Origin: Eubacterium sp. An11
Lineage (GTDB): Bacteria > Bacillota > Clostridia > Lachnospirales > Lachnospiraceae
Assembly: GCF_002161065.1 (NCBI RefSeq)
Contig: NZ_NFLV01000005.1
Location: forward strand, 1-64,000
Length of the DNA: 64,000 nt
Direction: 5' to 3'
In this document: piece by piece, positions 51,157-63,720 of the stretch
How the letters are laid out: each line of letters starts with the position of its first letter
Numbering within the stretch: the stretch's first letter is position 1
Translations under genes and position numbers: made by a program
Notes under the pieces: generated by a model
The model's database searches: none
Told to the model about the DNA's origin: nothing
The model's input: the letters and a program-made list of their open reading frames with translations, nothing else

Positions 51157-52167
51157 TCAGTCAAACAGCATGGCTTCCCGGATGACCACATTTTTATTTT
51201 TTCTCCAGATGGAGGGGAATTCGCGGATACTCAGCGGGCAGGTGCCTCGTCCCACTTCCAGGGTGATACACGGGATATCTCTCTTATAAAGGAAATATTC
51301 CCTGGAACATCCTGCTGCTGAGCTGAGACTTTCTGTCGGCATCAGGCGATAGCCTGTCAGACTCTGTGCCGTCCTATACATGCGGTCAGTCACCTGCTCC
51401 ACCTTTGTTTCCGCGTTGCTGGCACATCTTCCATATAAAATGGATCCAGTGGAATGATAGCTGACCACACCCGCAATCTGACCATTTTTCTCAATCCGGT
51501 TGACCATTTTGACCAGAGCTTTTACTTCCGGCTCACTGGCCGCCTTGCTGCCATGGAAACCGGCGTATCCGCGGACACCGCCCTTTCGGAACGCCACGGC
51601 CCAATTCCGGTTCAGATCCACGCCCCGGGCGTTGGCCTTCCATCTCAGAGCACTTCCCGGCATCTTACGAAGGGCTGCCCGCAGACTCTTATCCCGTATG
51701 GCCCCAAATCCAAACTGACTGATGGCCGTTCCGTCAGGATTGGCGGACGGCACATAATGAATGGCAACTTTGTCAAGAACATCCGCCACTTTCGCGCCGC
51801 TGATCTTCTTATTATATTTCTTCAGATAATACTCAAGCTGGCGCATACAAAGCTGCGTTGTCATATATTCCCTCGCATGAAGATTCGCAATGACCACCAG
51901 ATGTTTTTTCGCCTGGGTATTGCCCAAAACCACCTCGTAAAGGTTCCGGTCATCCGCTGACCGTCCGATGACATTGACCTGGCAGCGATCCGGATATTTC
52001 TTTTTCAGCTGTTTTAAATCTTTCCGATACTCCGCATATGTATATTTCTGGTGATTTGTTGATACAATGGCCGCCTCCGTTTTCTGTCCATGGGCAGCCC
52101 ATAGTCCCAGTCCCACGAACAGAAACAAAAGCAGCCATATCTTCCGCCTTTTTACAATACTTTTCAT
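51157..52167 (-). CDS. M14-family zinc carboxypeptidase, secreted or membrane-anchored
   Basis: A 336-aa protein. A basic head and one hydrophobic helix (about 9-25) form a signal or anchor. NLHAREYMTTQLCMRQ gives the HxxE zinc pair, GVDLNRNW the substrate-binding arginine block, GVVSYHSTGSILYG the third zinc histidine, and CITLEVGRGT the catalytic glutamate. It probably cuts peptides or peptidoglycan stem peptides outside the cell. AAGGAG precedes the ATG at 52167; the frame open to 52209 has no site. Confidence 0.88.
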   Translation of the reverse strand: MKSIVKRRKIWLLLFLFVGLGLWAAHGQKTEAAIVSTNHQKYTYAEYRKDLKQLKKKYPDRCQVNVIGRSADDRNLYEVVLGNTQAKKHLVVIANLHAREYMTTQLCMRQLEYYLKKYNKKISGAKVADVLDKVAIHYVPSANPDGTAISQFGFGAIRDKSLRAALRKMPGSALRWKANARGVDLNRNWAVAFRKGGVRGYAGFHGSKAASEPEVKALVKMVNRIEKNGQIAGVVSYHSTGSILYGRCASNAETKVEQVTDRMYRTAQSLTGYRLMPTESLSSAAGCSREYFLYKRDIPCITLEVGRGTCPLSIREFPSIWRKNKNVVIREAMLFD

Positions 52168-52218
52168 CCGTTGTCTCTCCTTCTTTATTTTGTAAAAGAA
52201 TCGTAACATTCTATTAAT

Positions 52219-52247
52219 AATTTACATGAAAAGTGGAAAATCGTCAA
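52219..52247 (-). promoter_or_regulatory. promoter of the M14 carboxypeptidase gene
   Basis: TTGACG (52242-52247) and TAAATT (52219-52224) on the minus strand with 17 bp between, about 50 bp upstream of the ATG. Confidence 0.5.
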
Positions 52248-52349
52248 CAACGGATTTTTTTCAAAAAAATATGACATAACCGTTTGCCTGCATTAACAGC
52301 AAATTTACGGCATGTCACAGTTTTCCTCTCACTATACAAACTTTTCCGG

Positions 52350-52393
52350 ACATAGTAAAAGAGAGCATCTGACTACCAATTCAAATGCTCCCT
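52350..52393 (-). terminator. intrinsic terminator of the repeat-containing RNA
   Basis: GAGCATTTGA/TCAGATGCTC stem with an 8-nt loop, followed on the minus strand by TCTTTTAC. It lies about 650 nt downstream of the consensus promoter at 53044 and 100 bp upstream of the carboxypeptidase promoter. Confidence 0.65.
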
Positions 52394-53036
52394 TTCACTG
52401 TTCACTTATTATGTCCAACGGTCTATACCTCCTGTTCATAATATAGTTTCGGTTAATTACTTATGTTTTTGTCGGACCGTACCTCAAATACTTTTCCTCT
52501 TAACCTTAAGAAGAACTTTCCGGGAATCTCATATCACCAATTCTTTTCCTATCCCTTGCACTATAACCGGTTATCTTCATCCACCTTCAAGCTTCCTTAA
52601 AATCTCGAGCGAACTTTCTTATGATCACAATTTCAAAGTGCCAATCCTATGAATCCTAAGATAAACTGCACGGTGACCTGTACATCTTCTGCTTCTCAAC
52701 TCATCGGGCTCAATCACTGACAACCCCTTACCTCTTGTACCTCTTCCTTCAGCTTCTCCTGAATTCCAATCTTACTACTTCCGGTGGTCTGTACCTCCTG
52801 CCTTAGTATCGTTTGAGTGTCAGATTAAAGTTTTTGGTGGTCTGTACCTCCTTTGCTTAGTATAGTTTTGAGTCTGAAATTACTCTTTCTGGCGGTCTGT
52901 ACCTCCTGTTACTTATTTAAATCTTGAAATTAAATTAACCTTCTTGGTGGTCTCACCTCTTTTTCTTTTACAAAAAACTGAAAATTAACAATTACAAGAT
53001 CTATATAAAGGACTTTGTCCGTCCTGTCTTTGTTTG
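52394..53036 (-). ncRNA. candidate non-coding RNA built from ~53-55 nt tandem repeats carrying Shine-Dalgarno cores
   Basis: No convincing ORF lies between a perfect promoter (53044-53072) and a terminator (52350-52393). The minus strand carries the core AGGAGGTACAGACCACC, with plus-strand positions 52783-52799, 52836-52852, 52891-52907 and a shorter form at 52946-52959: spacings of 53, 55 and 55 bp. Degenerate copies lie at 52419-52433 and 52473-52485 (54 bp apart) and around 52671 and 52733, so about eleven units could fill the whole span. Sequences between the cores are also related (TTAGTAT-GTTTGAGT-type blocks). Each intact core contains AGGAGGT, complementary to the 16S rRNA 3' end, yet no start codon follows. 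No known RNA family is recognised. Confidence 0.6.
52419..52959. repeat. degenerate tandem repeat, ~53-55 bp period
   Basis: Four adjacent units are clear at the 52783-52959 end; two more are 54 bp apart at 52419 and 52473; those between are decayed but keep the phase. Given as GGTGGTCTGTACCTCCT on the plus strand. Period and related inter-core sequence argue for tandem duplication. Confidence 0.65.
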
Positions 53037-53043
53037 TATCTGT

Positions 53044-53072
53044 ATTATAATTCTAACGCCCGATTTTGTCAA
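53044..53072 (-). promoter_or_regulatory. perfect consensus sigma-A promoter without a coding gene downstream
   Basis: TTGACA (53067-53072), 17-bp spacer, TATAAT (53044-53049) on the minus strand. Transcription would start near 53037 and run into the tandem-repeat region. Confidence 0.75.
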
Positions 53073-53224
53073 TACTATTTTTCAAAAAAATTTTTGTTTT
53101 TTCAAAATGATTAAATATTCTGATAAATATTAGTTTTTACATCTATAATTAAATATTTTTCTGATAATTTATTCTTTTGACACAATCAGCACAGAAACAA
53201 CGGTCCGTCACAAGATTCTGACGT

Positions 53225-53761
53225 CTATTTCCTTATTTTAAACTTCTTCTGAATGTCATAACGCCCCCACAGTTCCACATCGTTCTGTCTGGCCAGATTG
53301 CGGGCGCTTTTTGTGAAACCGCTGTTGGTCACCACCATGGCCCGGTCGGCATCATAGTAAGCCACAGAGCCCACAGCCTCCTGCACCGCGGAAATACCAA
53401 CATTTTTCTCATAACGTTTGGCCTGCACCACTATTTTTTCCCCATGTTTCCGGACAATGAGATCTGCCCCGTAATCATGACTGAAATCTGTCAGCGTCAC
53501 CCGGTAGCCCAGATGTTTAAACTGTGCCCGCAGATATTTCTCGAATGCTCTGCCGCTTAATTTATCTACTTTTCGCATGGACATACCGAGATACCGGCGG
53601 CTGATCAGGCGGCGAAACAGAAGCAGCAGTCCCACCGCGCAGAGAATCGTATAAAAAACGCATTCTTCTCCCTTAGCTTCTGTGTACATCATATATCCCC
53701 TGCCATAAGCGCCGATGACCAATACTGCCAATATCCCTGTCATGATGTCAAATACTCTCAT
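53225..53761 (-). CDS. membrane-anchored Mrr-like restriction endonuclease-fold protein
   Basis: A 178-aa protein. Two hydrophobic helices near residues 4-22 and 34-49 anchor a cytoplasmic nuclease-like domain: LSGRAFEKYLRAQFKHLGY, DYGADLIVRKHGEKIVVQAKRY and AVVTNSGFTKSARNLA. The D...QAK pattern is the PD-(D/E)XK core of the Mrr_cat family. No methyltransferase gene is adjacent, so it may cut modified or foreign DNA or serve in DNA turnover at the membrane. Defence is possible but unproven. It lies alone, divergent from mtnK-mtnA. Confidence 0.8.
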   Translation of the reverse strand: MRVFDIMTGILAVLVIGAYGRGYMMYTEAKGEECVFYTILCAVGLLLLFRRLISRRYLGMSMRKVDKLSGRAFEKYLRAQFKHLGYRVTLTDFSHDYGADLIVRKHGEKIVVQAKRYEKNVGISAVQEAVGSVAYYDADRAMVVTNSGFTKSARNLARQNDVELWGRYDIQKKFKIRK

Positions 53762-53967: not shown

Positions 53968-56364
53968 TTGTCAGATTTCAATACATATTTTTTGATGAAA
54001 GAATCCGATGTGATCGCTTACGTTCAGGCTAAGCTGCATTATTTTAACGACGCAGCCGCTCTTTCCTGCAAGGAAATCGGAGACGGCAACCTAAATTACG
54101 TTTTCCGGGTAAAAGATGAGAAAACCGGCCGTTCTGTCATCGTAAAACAGGCCGGAACGCACCTGCGCATCTCCGATAAAATGACACTGACCACGGACCG
54201 TGGCCGCATCGAGGCCAGTATCTTAAAACTGCAGGGAATCCTGAGCCCGGGACTGGTGCCGGAGGTATACCTCTATGACGGCGTCATGTGCGCCATGATC
54301 ATGGAGGACATGGTGGGGCACACCATGATGCGTACCGGCCTCATTCACCATGAAGTTTATCCGAAGTTTCCGGATCAGATCACCACATTTCTTGTGAACT
54401 GCCTTTTGATGACCACCGATATTGTTATGGATCATCAGAAAAGGAAAGCACTGGTGCGGGAGTTTTCCAACCCGGAGCTCTGTGATATCACGGAAAATCT
54501 TGTCTTCGGAGAACCGATTCTTAATTATAATAGAAGAAACGACGTGTTTCCTCCGGTGAAAGATTTTGTGGAAACGGAGATCTATCAGGACGAAAAATTG
54601 AAGGCGGAAGTGGCTAAACTTAAGTTTCGTTTCATGAATTACGCCCAATCCCTGATTCACGGTGATCTGCACACCGGTTCGGTATTTATCAACCAGGAGC
54701 ACACTTTTGTCTTTGATCCGGAGTTTGCCTTCTTCGGCCCTATGGGCTATGACATCGGAAATGTCATCGCCAATCTTTTCTTTGCCTGGGCCAACGGCAA
54801 CGCCACCATAAAAGACCCGGAAGAAAAGGCGCATTTCTGCGGCTGGTGCATGGGCGCCATTCTGGAAGTGGTGGATTTGTTTAAAGAGAAGTTTGTGCGT
54901 CTCTACGATGAACAGGTGACGGAACCGCTGGCAAAATCCGCCGGATTTAAGAAGTCTTACCTGCGGGATATTCTCGCTGACACGGCAGGATATGCCGGAA
55001 CCGAATGCATCCGCCGGATCGTGGGCATGGCTCATAATAAAGATATCACCGTCATCGAAGATATGGAAAAGCGCGCCTGCGCTGAGAAGATTCTTCTGAC
55101 GTTTGCCAAAGATCTGATTCTTCACCGGGAAGACTTTCAGACCTCCGGAGATTACCTCCAGGCCATGGAAAAGGCTATCCGGGCCATCGAGCCGGAGAAT
55201 CCTCTGCTCGGGCCGGAGAAAACGATCCTTGACTACGATACCGTGGCTCTGGATGATGAGAACCACGCCCTGGTGATCATTGACCAGACAAAGCTTCCTT
55301 CCCGCATTGAGATTCTTTCTCTTACCGCGCAGGAAGATATCTGGGACGCCATCTACCTTCTCAAGGTGCGGGGCGCTCCGGCCATCGGCGTGACCGCTGC
55401 CATCGGTATTTATCTGGCCGCCAGAGAAATCGCTCTTTCCATGGCGTCTCAGAACGGCAATTCCGCCGGACAGGCGTCTTCGGATTATGATGAATTTCTT
55501 CGCCGTTTCCGGGAAGCTTCTGCCTATCTGAATTCTTCCCGACCGACGGCTGTGAACCTTTCCTGGGCTCTGCGCCGCATGGAAAATGTGGTGCAGGACC
55601 ACAAGGGGGATTCTGTGCCGCAGATTGTAACTGCCCTTCACGATGAGGCCCTTACCATCCGCGAGGAAGATATTCTGGTATGCCGCTCCATCGGAAAGTA
55701 CGGCCTCTCCCTGGTGAAACCGGGCGACGGCCTGCTGACCCACTGCAATGCCGGTCAGCTTGCCACAGTCAAATACGGCACCGCCACAGCTCCGATGTAT
55801 CTGGGTCAGGAGAAGGGATATCATTTTAAAGTATACTGTGATGAGACCCGTCCGCTCCTGCAGGGCGCCAGACTGACCAGTTTTGAATTAAAGAGCGCCG
55901 GTCTGGACGTCACTCTGCTGTGCGATAACATGTCTGCTTCCCTCATGCGCGAGGGTAAGATCCAGGCTGTATTTGTGGGCTGTGACCGGGTGGCCAGAAA
56001 TGGGGACACCGCCAACAAGATTGGCACCTCCATGGCCGCTCTCGCCGCCAAACGCTATCATGTGCCATTTTATGTGTGCGCGCCGACATCCACCATTGAC
56101 ATGAACACCGCCACCGGTGATGATATTATCATTGAACAGAGAAAACCGGAAGAAGTCACTGATATGTGGTACGAAAAACCAATGACCGCTCCCAGCGTAA
56201 ACGTTTATAATCCAGCTTTTGATGTGACCGACCATGATCTGATCACGGGCATTGTCACAGAATTCGGCGTTGCTTATCCGCCGTACGGAGAATCCTTCCA
56301 GGAAATTTTCCTGAAAAAGCAGATTCGTGATACCGTACAGCGGATGTTAAAAGATATGAAATAG
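53968..56364 (+). CDS. mtnK-mtnA: bifunctional S-methyl-5-thioribose kinase / S-methyl-5-thioribose-1-phosphate isomerase fusion
   Basis: A single 798-aa frame joins two methionine-salvage enzymes. Residues 1 to about 405 are MtnK: GDGNLNYVFRV near 38-48 and LIHGDLHTGSVF near 228-239, then FVFDPEFAFFGPMGYDIGN (kinase catalytic and metal loops). From about 418 to the end is MtnA: KVRGAPAIGVTAA, THCNAGQLATVKYG with the catalytic cysteine near 592, and GCDRVARNGDTANKIGT with the catalytic aspartate near 673. It would convert methylthioribose through its 1-phosphate to methylthioribulose-1-phosphate. A TTG start follows AGGAGGGGGG by seven bases. Later pathway genes are not in the window. Confidence 0.92.
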   Translation: MSDFNTYFLMKESDVIAYVQAKLHYFNDAAALSCKEIGDGNLNYVFRVKDEKTGRSVIVKQAGTHLRISDKMTLTTDRGRIEASILKLQGILSPGLVPEVYLYDGVMCAMIMEDMVGHTMMRTGLIHHEVYPKFPDQITTFLVNCLLMTTDIVMDHQKRKALVREFSNPELCDITENLVFGEPILNYNRRNDVFPPVKDFVETEIYQDEKLKAEVAKLKFRFMNYAQSLIHGDLHTGSVFINQEHTFVFDPEFAFFGPMGYDIGNVIANLFFAWANGNATIKDPEEKAHFCGWCMGAILEVVDLFKEKFVRLYDEQVTEPLAKSAGFKKSYLRDILADTAGYAGTECIRRIVGMAHNKDITVIEDMEKRACAEKILLTFAKDLILHREDFQTSGDYLQAMEKAIRAIEPENPLLGPEKTILDYDTVALDDENHALVIIDQTKLPSRIEILSLTAQEDIWDAIYLLKVRGAPAIGVTAAIGIYLAAREIALSMASQNGNSAGQASSDYDEFLRRFREASAYLNSSRPTAVNLSWALRRMENVVQDHKGDSVPQIVTALHDEALTIREEDILVCRSIGKYGLSLVKPGDGLLTHCNAGQLATVKYGTATAPMYLGQEKGYHFKVYCDETRPLLQGARLTSFELKSAGLDVTLLCDNMSASLMREGKIQAVFVGCDRVARNGDTANKIGTSMAALAAKRYHVPFYVCAPTSTIDMNTATGDDIIIEQRKPEEVTDMWYEKPMTAPSVNVYNPAFDVTDHDLITGIVTEFGVAYPPYGESFQEIFLKKQIRDTVQRMLKDMK

Positions 56365-56510: not shown

Positions 56511-58268
56511 TCATTTTCTCCACCCTGCCGGATATTTATTTTTTAAGGTAGCGCCGGCCACTTTGCCAAATCCCAGCGGGAAACCGTCGGCAAGAACCAG
56601 ATACCAGCCATTTCTGCCCGACTGTTTTTTTCTGCTTTTCGACTGTGAATCTCCCGCCTGCATTCTGCTTTTCAATCGCATATCTTCTGCCTGCATTCTG
56701 CTTTTCGACTGTGAATCCCCCGCCTGCATTCTGCTTTTCGACAGCATATCTTCTGCCCGCATTTCACTTTCGTCTCCCGCTGCTGCCAGGCTGTCATCCT
56801 GTTCTCCTGACCAGTCCAGGGACAGACTTTCTCCCCGAAGATAGTTCTCCAGACGTGGGTCCCGGCCCGAGAAATTCAAACAGCGATCAAACGTATCTTT
56901 TGAGAGAATCAGCGCAAACGGCTGAGACGGCTCAAAACGCTTTTTCTTGAAATCTCCCATGTAAATGCCATTGCGAAGGAAATGAATGCCCTTTGCTTCC
57001 CTTGTCTCTTCCGGTACGTAGTAGAGCTTCTCTCCCCGGACATCCATGCGTTCTGGTTCCAGATCCAGCAGTACATGGGAAAAGAACTCGGCGGCTGCCT
57101 GCTGCTGCTCTTTGCCGAGGTCTTTGCACACTTCCCACCAGTGCTTGTTCCGGCCATTCTGCCGGCCCTGCCCGGAATCTTTTCTTCTTTTTTTCTTATC
57201 TTTTTTACGTTTTCCGGCTTTTATATCGCCCGCCGGCGCGTATGTCATCCGGATTCGTTCTGGCTGGATGTTTTCTGGCAGAATTTGTTCTGCCGGTGTG
57301 TTTTCCATCTGCTCTCGTTCTGTCTCTCCACGCTGACCGGCGCCTTCTTCTTTTTTATGGAGCAGCGCCATGAAATGTCCTTCTCCCGGCATCTTGTGAG
57401 GAAAAATACGCCGGCAGAGATGACAGCTTTCATGGAATTCTTCACCGGCAAAGGCAGTAAGTCCCCAGGAGAATCCTTCGTAATCCTCCATGGGAATCAC
57501 TTCCATCTCCGGGCGTTCCCGGAGCAGATGGGTGATGACCCTCTCGTTTTCCGCCGGTGAAAATGTACAGGTAGAATAGAGCATCTTGCCGCCGGGCCGC
57601 AGCATATCCGCTCCATGCAGAATAATCTCCTTCTGAAGCCGGGAAAAATATTCCGGCCCCTTCTCCTGCCAGGCGTCGATGACCGCCGGATTCTTCCGGA
57701 ACATGCCCTCTCCGGAGCAGGGTGCGTCCACCATGATTTTGTCAAAGTACTCCGGATATTTCTCCGCCAGAACATAGGGCGGCTCATTGGTGACAAAGGC
57801 GTTGGATATCCCGAACAGCTCCAGATTGCGCAGAAGGGCCTTCGCCCGGGCGTTGTTGATATCATTGGCCACTAAAAGCCCTTTCCCCCGGAGTTTTGCT
57901 CCCAGGGCGGTCGCCTTGCCGCCGGGCGCCGCGCACAGATCCAGTACCCGTTCGCCGGGCTGCACCGGCAACCGGGAGGCCGGAGTCATGGCGCTTGGTT
58001 CCTGCAGATAGTAAAGCCCCGCCGCATAAAATGGATGTCTGGCCGGAGCGTCTTCTTCCTCGTAAAAATATCCCTCTGGTATCCACGGGATTTTTCTCAA
58101 ATGAAAAGGAGCAATTCTTTCGAATTCCTCCAATTCTATCTTTGAAGTATTTACCCGCAGACCAAATTGTCTTTTTCCGTCAAAGCCTCTTAAAAATGCT
58201 TCGTATTCTTCCCCGAGAAGCTGCTGCATCATGTTCTGGAAGCTTTCCGGTAACTGCAATTTCGTCAT
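56511..58268 (-). CDS. RsmF/RsmB-type 16S rRNA (cytosine-C5) methyltransferase
   Basis: A 585-aa NOL1/NOP2/Sun-family methyltransferase. LDLCAAPGGKATALGA (about 110-125) binds S-adenosylmethionine, IMVDAPCSGEGMFRKNP has the release cysteine and LLYSTCTFSPAENE the catalytic cysteine. A basic insert (KKDKKKRRKDSG) and a C-terminal RsmF-type domain follow. Within the C-terminal part an 11-residue repeat (SKSRMQAGDSQ type) occurs three to four times in a row (56635-56765), a low-complexity expansion. The start ATG 58268 overlaps the CBS gene's stop (ATGA), with GGAG upstream, so the two are coupled. Confidence 0.9.
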   Translation of the reverse strand: MTKLQLPESFQNMMQQLLGEEYEAFLRGFDGKRQFGLRVNTSKIELEEFERIAPFHLRKIPWIPEGYFYEEEDAPARHPFYAAGLYYLQEPSAMTPASRLPVQPGERVLDLCAAPGGKATALGAKLRGKGLLVANDINNARAKALLRNLELFGISNAFVTNEPPYVLAEKYPEYFDKIMVDAPCSGEGMFRKNPAVIDAWQEKGPEYFSRLQKEIILHGADMLRPGGKMLYSTCTFSPAENERVITHLLRERPEMEVIPMEDYEGFSWGLTAFAGEEFHESCHLCRRIFPHKMPGEGHFMALLHKKEEGAGQRGETEREQMENTPAEQILPENIQPERIRMTYAPAGDIKAGKRKKDKKKRRKDSGQGRQNGRNKHWWEVCKDLGKEQQQAAAEFFSHVLLDLEPERMDVRGEKLYYVPEETREAKGIHFLRNGIYMGDFKKKRFEPSQPFALILSKDTFDRCLNFSGRDPRLENYLRGESLSLDWSGEQDDSLAAAGDESEMRAEDMLSKSRMQAGDSQSKSRMQAEDMRLKSRMQAGDSQSKSRKKQSGRNGWYLVLADGFPLGFGKVAGATLKNKYPAGWRK

Positions 58269-62442: not shown

Positions 62443-63720
62443 TTACTGTGCTTCCCCGGCTGCCGATGTGGCCGCTGCCGCTTCTGTAGATGCCGCTGTA
62501 TCCGCTGCACCGGCTGCTGTCGTGGTCTCCGTGGACGCTGCCGTGGTATCGGCTGCTCCGGCCGCTGTCGTAGTTTCCGTGGACGCTGCTGTGGTATCGG
62601 CTGCTCCGGCCGCTGTGGCTGTCTGTGCCGGAGCTGTCTCTGTGGCAGCTTCTGTGGCTGTGCTTTCTTCTGTGTGAAGCACCAGCTCTGCCCACAGTTC
62701 CTGGTTCACGTCTTCATCGTAATTCCATTCTGCCTCCAGGTCTTTGGTCCATCCGTCATAAACTTCGGAGAACTTCGTCTGCTGACGCTCAGAGATGATG
62801 GACTGCCGGTTGCTTTCGGTGGCATCGGCGTCGGTGTACGCATCCAGTCTTGCGATGACATAGCCGTTATCACATTCCTGCACTTCCTGGGTGATGTCGC
62901 CGTCTTTCATGGTGGCCAGCAGCTTCTCAAAGGCTTCGCCTTCCTCGGATTCTCCGGCTGCGAAAGTTTCTGAAGTATTGGTGTAGTTCTGCTCTTTGGC
63001 AATATCTGCTATATCAGTTCCGGACTGCAGTTTTGCCAGAGCCGCCTGGGCTGTGGATAATACCTGCGCCTTCTCTTCATCGCTCATGTCCACAGTATTT
63101 CCCTCATCGTCTGTGGTGGTCGTGGCAAATACCACACGGGAGATGGTAGTCTCTCTTGCCTCATCGTCACTGACGTTCGTGTCGGTATCCTTGACCATAT
63201 ATTCCTGCACCTTGGCCGCCAGCGCATTTTCCTCGTAGATCTCTGTCATATCATCTTTATCGGCGCCGCACTCTGCCAGAATCTCCGCTCCGGATTCATC
63301 TTTGGCGAAGGCTTCCGCATATTCTTCACACTGTTTTTCTTCATCCTCACTCAAAGAAGCTCCCGCTTCCTCAGCGTGATTATTCAGAACGATAATCTGT
63401 TTGATGCGGGCGATGATCTGTTCTTTGGCGTAGTCTTCAAAAGTCTGCGCATTTCCTTCATCGTCGGTCCCCATATCCATGGTCCAGAAATTATCCCCGA
63501 AATAAGAAGAATAAGAAGCCTCGTACTGAGCCGCTGTCATTTTTCCGTAAATCCACGCTTTTTTCAGGGGAACATCCACCCCGTCATAGGTGAACAGCGT
63601 CTCATTTCCATTCTGTGTAACTTCCCCTTTTCCGCCGGAATTGCCGCAGCCGGTCATGGTGCCTATGGCAAGAACAAGACCCATGGCCGCAGCCGCCAGG
63701 CGTTTTGTACCGTGTTTCAT
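62443..63720 (-). CDS. PrsA/SurA-like peptidyl-prolyl isomerase lipoprotein
   Basis: A 425-aa exported protein. A signal peptide ends in the lipobox GTMTGCGN with the lipid-bearing cysteine at position 25. A SurA-N-like helical region follows, and a parvulin-like segment (KDGDITQEVQECDNGYVIARLDAYTD) near residues 280-310. The last 70 residues are an Ala/Thr-rich tail with 16-residue repeats (TAAGAADTTAASTETT). It probably helps secreted proteins fold outside the membrane. GGAGG precedes the ATG and a TTGACC-N17-TACAAT promoter lies about 95 bp upstream. Confidence 0.85.
   Translation of the reverse strand: MKHGTKRLAAAAMGLVLAIGTMTGCGNSGGKGEVTQNGNETLFTYDGVDVPLKKAWIYGKMTAAQYEASYSSYFGDNFWTMDMGTDDEGNAQTFEDYAKEQIIARIKQIIVLNNHAEEAGASLSEDEEKQCEEYAEAFAKDESGAEILAECGADKDDMTEIYEENALAAKVQEYMVKDTDTNVSDDEARETTISRVVFATTTTDDEGNTVDMSDEEKAQVLSTAQAALAKLQSGTDIADIAKEQNYTNTSETFAAGESEEGEAFEKLLATMKDGDITQEVQECDNGYVIARLDAYTDADATESNRQSIISERQQTKFSEVYDGWTKDLEAEWNYDEDVNQELWAELVLHTEESTATEAATETAPAQTATAAGAADTTAASTETTTAAGAADTTAASTETTTAAGAADTAASTEAAAATSAAGEAQ
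62490..62620. repeat. 48-bp tandem repeats in the foldase tail
   Basis: Two and a half in-frame copies of a 48-bp unit encode TAAGAADTTAASTETT, a flexible Ala/Thr-rich linker or wall-spanning tail. Such repeats vary in copy number between strains by slippage. Confidence 0.75.

Follow-up and report, generated by a model that had tools for sequence, protein, structure and literature searches.

A candidate RNA family of Lachnospiraceae with arrays of Shine-Dalgarno hairpins and a micro-ORF at the terminator

Sequence comparison points to an undescribed RNA family that is widespread in Lachnospiraceae and matches no Rfam family. The RNA was analysed in a 64,000-nt stretch of DNA from Eubacterium sp. 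An11 (here called the window), where it carries an array of predicted Shine-Dalgarno (SD) hairpins followed by a micro-ORF. Its anatomy, with the SD-hairpin array, the minigene-like units, and a micro-ORF touching the terminator, points to the ribosome as its partner. We tentatively propose, with somewhat less than even confidence, that these RNAs form a new ribosome-engaging family, which may buffer or titrate initiating ribosomes and may be shielded by them.

Locus anatomy

The RNA is encoded on the minus strand, between an upstream gene with an Mrr_cat domain (53225-53761, minus strand; Pfam), which lies outside the RNA, and, downstream, the gene of an M14 zinc carboxypeptidase (Peptidase_M14; 51157-52209, minus strand; Pfam). 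A promoter of the sigma-70 type spans 53044-53072, with the -35 box TTGACA at 53072-53067 and the -10 box TATAAT at 53049-53044, separated by 17 nt. It matches the consensus at 12 of 12 positions, in agreement with the perfect minus-strand TTGACA-N17-TATAAT promoter reported in the initial annotation, and the sequence places the expected start site of the RNA near 53037. The hairpin-plus-T terminator reported for the other end is likewise present, as an intrinsic terminator at 52357-52392 with a core stem at approximately 52392-52361 and a T-run at 52360-52357; it was missing from the output of the scanner that scored the promoter 12/12.

Between these elements (all coordinates on the minus strand), the RNA begins with a 5' leader (52961-53037) in which fold prediction places a GGAC...GUCC hairpin near the start. 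The first core, in unit 1, is degenerate (AGAGGTGAGACCACC; 52946-52960) and is followed by the SD-hairpin cores of unit 2 (AGGAGGTACAGACCGCC; 52891-52907), unit 3 (AGGAGGTACAGACCACC; 52836-52852), and unit 4 (also AGGAGGTACAGACCACC; 52783-52799). A central domain of ~300 nt without repeats (52490-52782), patchily conserved in the genus alignment, precedes unit 5 (core GAGGTACGGTCCGAC; 52471-52485) and unit 6, the terminal core (AGGAGGTATAGACCG; 52419-52433). The initial annotation had counted about eleven degenerate units of 53-55 nt. The tandem array itself is real and was detected by TRF with a period of 55 (rows 52779-52908 and 52783-52967), but six cores are convincing, with GAGG starting at 52959, 52905, 52850, 52797, 52485, and 52431. 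Four of them belong to the tandem block on the 5' side, where the units measure 53-55 nt, and the other two stand at the 3' end; the core shared by the six clear units is of the GGAGGUACAGACC type. AGGAGGT occurs four times in the 693-nt RNA (mean 0.10 and maximum 2 in 1000 mononucleotide shuffles), which bears out the earlier claim that the cores include the SD sequence. The whole RNA was predicted to fold better than shuffled sequences (z -3.3; 20 shuffles).

The terminal core forms the SD and spacer of a micro-ORF (52395-52418), which was read from the sequence and has comparable ORFs in relatives: AGGAGG TATAGACCG TTG GAC ATA ATA AGT GAA CAG TGA, encoding MDIISEQ. The TTG at 52418 stands 9 nt past AGGAGG, the TGA ends at 52395, and the 5' base of the terminator lies 2 nt past this stop. 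The earlier statement that no start codons follow the cores is therefore wrong at the terminal core. That no significant frame exists holds for longer frames, since no ATG, GTG, or TTG frame of at least 50 aa overlaps 52218-53224, but not for this SD-led frame of seven codons at the 3' end.

Conservation within the genus

The RNA was found by blastn in 22 of the 24 genomes of the genus, the query genome included, and blastn matches outside the genus were weak (2 of 37 other genomes). The number of units varies among the genus loci. At 19 of the 22 array-bearing loci, an Mrr-like gene precedes the array in the same orientation; it was not found at L144 and L153, where the array is located at a contig end, or at L156. 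A leucyl aminopeptidase gene is present downstream, on the other strand, at 15/22 loci, and neither this gene nor the M14 carboxypeptidase was seen at 6/22. The promoter pattern was matched at 19/22 loci. L140 and L146 fail it solely because a G follows the -10 box, and L144 fails because the contig end cuts the locus. The GGAC...GTCC leader is retained in 11 of 18 aligned genus RNAs, as counted by eye. In the genus alignment, changes on both sides were observed at 5 of 12 predicted pairs, all of them within the terminator stem. The core hairpin showed no compensatory change, GG-CC being nearly invariant.

As the stop codon abuts the stem, the base of the stem would be covered by a ribosome that terminates there, and the RNA could thus act as a cis attenuator, with the terminator and a downstream gene controlled by ribosomes on the micro-ORF. 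We consider this highly unlikely, because the M14 carboxypeptidase lies downstream at only 11 of the 22 genus loci. The downstream ORFs also differ, with 19 on the same strand and 12 on the opposite strand among the 31 of 33 examined loci that had a called ORF. A conserved co-directional downstream gene, by which riboswitches and leader attenuators are recognised, was not found.

Distribution in the family

The initial annotation had proposed a covariance search across Lachnospiraceae. Two models were built: R1, one unit plus the next core, from 54 units, and R3, the last two units plus the terminator, from 20 sequences. At E<=0.01, where about 4 genomes would be expected by chance, R1 matched 153 and R3 matched 204 of the 397 genomes from Lachnospiraceae, which supports a conserved RNA; a count by eye put R3 at about 183 when the threshold was E<=0.001. 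At E<=0.001, R1 matched 24 of 295 genomes order-wide, 4 of those outside Lachnospiraceae, and 3 of 291 class-wide with the query genome counted. R3 matched 2 of 249 genomes phylum-wide at the same threshold, the query again counted and both in Lachnospiraceae. Every R1 and R3 match in the query's own genome falls within this one locus. Blautia (L088 and L099), which has a short form of the RNA, is among the named members by model match, and at L099 the RNA lies divergent from a gene whose product we take to be enolase. Recognised units number from 1 to 10 per locus. A contig assigned to Oscillospiraceae (L022, 1-100, minus strand) carries GGAGGTACAGACCA ATG TAC AAG TAA, which may be an out-of-family member or a chance match.

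The earlier statement that no described RNA family could be recognised agrees with Rfam: at the gathering score, the RNA in the window and at 19 relative loci had no match, and two tRNAs were the only matches. A lax Rfam search gave three weak eukaryotic matches only, and a literature search of limited depth found no description of such an RNA. At the level of sequence, the picture of an orphan transcription unit with ribosome-binding cores stands, and the unit is conserved.

A phage origin was rejected, as no INPHARED phage record matched. A pattern scan of viral_contigs returned four matches, which, with the size of the collection roughly estimated, we judge to be close to chance. The one match that was read, in a viral contig (L169, 1561-1720), has GGAGGTACAGTCCATTGGA before a small ORF of ~40 aa; this looks like a ribosome-binding site, and the pattern match is probably due to chance. 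A 14-mer scan of genome contigs likewise gave mostly chance matches among those listed.

A-rich, low-complexity spacers and the lack of any frame of at least 50 aa could suggest a decayed protein gene, an IS remnant, or chance repeats. The initial annotation had named decayed-gene or IS homologues as evidence that would speak against an RNA. Such an origin is disfavoured by family-wide conservation together with promoter and terminator, by the spacing of the units (a multiple of 3 in 19/61 genus and 50/108 other intervals), and by the unmatched phage records, and appears extremely unlikely.

Two classes of unit

Cores were picked with a regular expression (339 in total, 111 from the genus and 228 from other genera) after removal of isolated far matches outside the genus. 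Because the model used to locate the loci had been made from the window's genus, CCN-like units are favoured, and the tests below ignore phylogeny. The consensus of the units is a GGUAYRGWCC core behind the SD, in which GG and CC are fixed by the core pattern, so that their variation is uninformative in this set.

As judged from their sequences, the units are of two classes: class 1 is an SD hairpin, GGAGGU-ACRG-ACC-A-CC, without a start codon, and class 2 has a more open SD followed by a very short ORF that begins with AUG or UUG. In other genera, the start position is occupied by ATG in 71 units, TTG in 10, GTG in 2, CCN in 100, AAG in 15, ATC in 11, and ACA in 9, plus rarer ones. Within the genus it is CCN in 60, ACA in 19, and TTG in 19, plus rarer ones, and internal units have other codons, mostly CCA, CCG, or ACA, in place of a start. 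Outside the genus, each of the 83 start units reaches an in-frame stop within 12 codons, at codon 3 in 33 of them, and internal mini-ORFs such as M-A, M-K, M-R, M-G-T, and M-Y-T occur in several genera.

The two classes also differ in the core. A at position W was found in 72/86 CCN units vs 20/80 start units outside the genus (p=1e-14, phylogeny ignored) and in 45/49 vs 7/16 within it; this A can pair with U, and would thereby complete the helix GGAGGU-ACRG-ACC-A-CC. GG just 5' of the core was seen in 83/100 CCN vs 35/83 start units outside the genus, and within the genus there was no difference (50/60 vs 14/16). The predicted probability of the local hairpin in other genera was 0.60 for CCN and 0.19 for start units, and mean predicted SD accessibility was 0.28 vs 0.45 outside and 0.22 vs 0.42 within the genus. 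In loci outside the genus with at least two recognised units, the first unit was CCN in 43/65 and the last was a start unit in 38/65.

It was also considered whether CCN units are ORFs with non-standard starts. Two observations hinted at ORFs. Non-start units have an in-frame stop at codon 3 in 110/145 cases outside and 42/92 within the genus, and in-frame stops in the spacer were found in 19/78 start vs 1/127 non-start units outside and 3/19 vs 2/71 within the genus (p=0.06). The substitution pattern at the stop-position codon weakens this reading: CCN units outside the genus have TTA there in 11 cases and TAG or TGA in 5, and are therefore probably not ORFs. The repeats as one coding sequence were rejected on the unit spacing given above and on the rarity of an in-frame start upstream of CCN (2/49 genus and 24/86 other CCN units).

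CsrB/RsmZ sponge RNAs are stand-alone RNAs with many GGA-containing repeats and variable copy number. The present RNA resembles them in being stand-alone with many GGA repeats of variable number, but here the GGA is part of the 5' arm of the predicted stem, not of the loop. By similar logic, the GGUACRGACC hairpins could bind an RNA-binding protein, with the start units as the regulated target form; a small hairpin-like motif that is strictly conserved while its copy number varies, and the association of A at W with CCN, are consistent with such a sponge. CsrA/RsmA (PF02599) was over the cut-off in 0 of 24 genus genomes, with positive search controls in E. coli, B. subtilis, and T. maritima, and sub-cut-off matches of 22 bits, inside longer frames, were seen in G008 and G018. 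A CsrA sponge is thus disfavoured in the genus, and the regulator store suggested in the initial annotation is unlikely to be a CsrA store here. The exact 12-nt core GAGGTAYRGWCC is present five times at the locus and at three other sites in the own genome; by eye these three look intra-coding, so no target set is visible at the level of the exact core. Overall, we regard a protein sponge as unlikely.

RoxS/RsaE-type regulation relies on C-rich small RNAs that pair with SD regions. The units look as if a single ribosome-binding site had been copied several times, and in other genera they include ATG; they could therefore mimic such a site and titrate a C-rich small RNA. No intergenic full complement of the 12-nt core was apparent on either strand of the own genome when searched as a full-length match, and we consider this RNA sponge very unlikely.

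Terminal micro-ORF

In the relatives from other genera that were read, the core likewise consists of SD and spacer, often ending in a start codon. With lenient criteria, 114 of 118 loci had a terminator downstream of the last core, and 88 had an ORF near the terminator. For a strict test, an SD-led ORF with its stop within -3 to +5 nt of the terminator stem was sought at 94 of the 118 loci, 24 being dropped because the terminator call was missing or weak or the context was short. Such an ORF was present at 21/21 genus and 58/73 other loci (79/94), whereas 1.3 and 3.8 would be expected when the 75 nt upstream are shuffled by dinucleotides, phylogeny being ignored. Among the features of the RNA, this micro-ORF is the most strongly tested.

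For description, 74 ORFs were kept, 20 from the genus and 54 from other genera; a few of the 54 have a weak SD and may be spurious. The genus ORFs all start with TTG (20/20), and the others with ATG (38), TTG (14), or GTG (2). TAA, TAG, and TGA are all in use as stops. Length ranges from about 5 to 10 aa across loci, and 31 of the 54 ORFs outside the genus have five codons. The second residue is D or E in 20/20 genus and 38/54 other ORFs. MDSIV is encoded by five different nucleotide sequences at seven loci, and MDEIV by three. Variation among genus ORFs is greatest at the third positions of the first three codons past the start, and the 31 pentapeptide ORFs of other genera are mixed, with third positions not uniformly the most variable. 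As far as sequences tell, in counts that ignore phylogeny, the reading frame appears to be kept by selection, as in a small ORF (sORF).

Several terminal frames of other kinds were also observed. A second type of micro-ORF (MKLLEIS, MKLLEIH, MKLQDIH, or MKLTIIH) lies close to the terminator after GAAGGTGTA-type leaders (L163 at 2215, L203 at 769, L229 at 800, and L254 at 929; oriented coordinates). The terminal micro-ORFs of L176 and L240 read MIEESV and MIEISG. In genus g178 (L202, L271, L272, L274, and L275), the terminal frame enters the terminator stem, as in MGSNFRGGIS of L202 and MGSMLRGGTS of L275, with the stop 16 nt inside the stem. A tRNA is found near L271 (Rfam), and tRNA-like sequence was recognised by eye at L272 and L274.

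The RNA may instead be a micropeptide or micro-ORF gene, in which the output is the translated terminal ORF, through its peptide or through translation as such, and the SD hairpins are 5' stabilisers similar to STAB-SD. We see this as a genuine if doubtful possibility. The ORF passes the strict test at most loci and is present in minimal two-unit forms (L199), M-D/E starts prevail, and MDSIV and MDEIV recur with synonymous changes. Moreover, passages of one paper describe that an SD without translation can stabilise Gram-positive mRNA (PMC4113751). However, the peptides of 5-10 aa differ greatly among genera, up to 10 units exceed what a stabiliser should need, and internal start units encode other very short ORFs.

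Ribosome pairing and proposed mechanism

We return to the preferred reading, a ribosome-engaging RNA. In G005, a relative from the genus, the 16S tail contains GGATCACCTCCTTTCT (L285), and an anti-SD tail was also found in two other genomes; 16S was not found in the window's own assembly. AGGAGGU is therefore able to pair with the tail of G005, as the initial annotation had held for the 16S 3' end. The predicted pairing of a unit with the 16S tail is about -13 kcal/mol, with -10.7 for AGGAGGU alone, and the core hairpin is predicted at about -3; on these modelled energies, the 16S tail would outcompete the core hairpin. Beyond the anti-SD, the spacer was predicted to pair with 16S no better than random spacers do (~58% of random 7-mers did as well). 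The strictness of GGUAYRGWCC exceeds the need of an ordinary ribosome-binding site, and a pure docking model does not account for it.

We propose that 30S subunits would dock on the units through the anti-SD tail. The start-less (CCN) units would hold 30S with no initiation, and the start-bearing units would run very short cycles of start and stop. The terminal ORF would be translated up to the terminator, where the ribosome that completes it would sit over the base of the stem. The RNA would most likely serve as a sink or buffer for ribosomes, and loaded ribosomes would also shield it from 5'-3' decay. 30S subunits may be titrated, as the initial annotation had suggested. A more elaborate version is possible, though we give it clearly less credence. 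In this version, metastable SD hairpins that mimic the SD/anti-SD duplex, with tandem minigenes in some genera, would capture initiating ribosomes and throttle or buffer translation in gut Lachnospiraceae, and the micro-ORF running into the terminator would report ribosome load.

Comparison with known systems

Lambda bar is of the minigene type. The internal units of several genera resemble minigenes and two-codon mini-ORFs, which have an SD, AUG, one or two more codons, and a stop, and units with an SD, a start, about 2-6 sense codons, and a stop were found in other genera. They differ in that as many as 10 units follow one another in a separate RNA that ends at a terminator of its own; in the window the internal units lack start codons, and the terminal ORF has 7 codons. 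Described examples include axe-txe mg2 and LEE1, and minigene toxicity is attributed to peptidyl-tRNA that is recycled too slowly, according to sections of one article (PMC8708949).

STAB-SD, the 5' mRNA stabiliser of cry3A, is similar in having an SD-like sequence that can bind 30S and for which translation is not required, and bound 30S blocks RNase J1, as stated in the same passages as above (PMC4113751); for the present RNA the pairing is predicted. STAB-SD is a single site in the 5' UTR of a protein gene, whereas here an array with hairpin forms is located in a separate RNA, whose own terminator precedes the next gene.

Type III toxin-antitoxin RNAs (ToxI/CptI) have tandem RNA repeats, a promoter, and a terminator, as does the RNA in the window. 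Unlike in these systems, the neighbours in the window carry Mrr_cat and Peptidase_M14 domains, and the neighbours elsewhere differ. No ToxN-like toxin gene was found directly downstream in the window by Pfam (the relatives' neighbours were read without Pfam), and a type III antitoxin is disfavoured, as the downstream gene encodes Peptidase_M14.

RNAIII and SR1 are dual-function small RNAs. The present RNA shares with them, and with sORFs, a short ORF on a small RNA, but its ORF has only 5-10 codons, abuts the terminator, and comes after an array of SDs. Categories of bacterial sORFs and uORFs are outlined in parts of a review (PMC6429828).

Other features of the window

A 798-aa gene at 53968-56364 (plus strand) matches APH (kinase-like) and IF-2B in Pfam, and looks like a fused methylthioribose kinase/methylthioribose-1-phosphate isomerase. 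A tandem repeat of 33/66 nt at 56630-56763 lies inside a 590-aa frame, which we take to be an RNA-methyltransferase-like gene. A further tandem repeat array, with a period of 48 and related periods, was found at 62491-62618.

Implications

The RNA is a clean candidate for a new Rfam family, and it calls for caution in the annotation of micro-ORFs. Such micro-ORFs are far below the usual length limits of gene calling. About half of the sampled species (204/397) of a dominant family in the human and animal gut carry this Rfam-unmatched RNA. It may offer a natural system for asking why 5-residue ORFs such as MDSIV persist across genera, what role start-less SD sites have, and whether cells titrate ribosomes with RNA.
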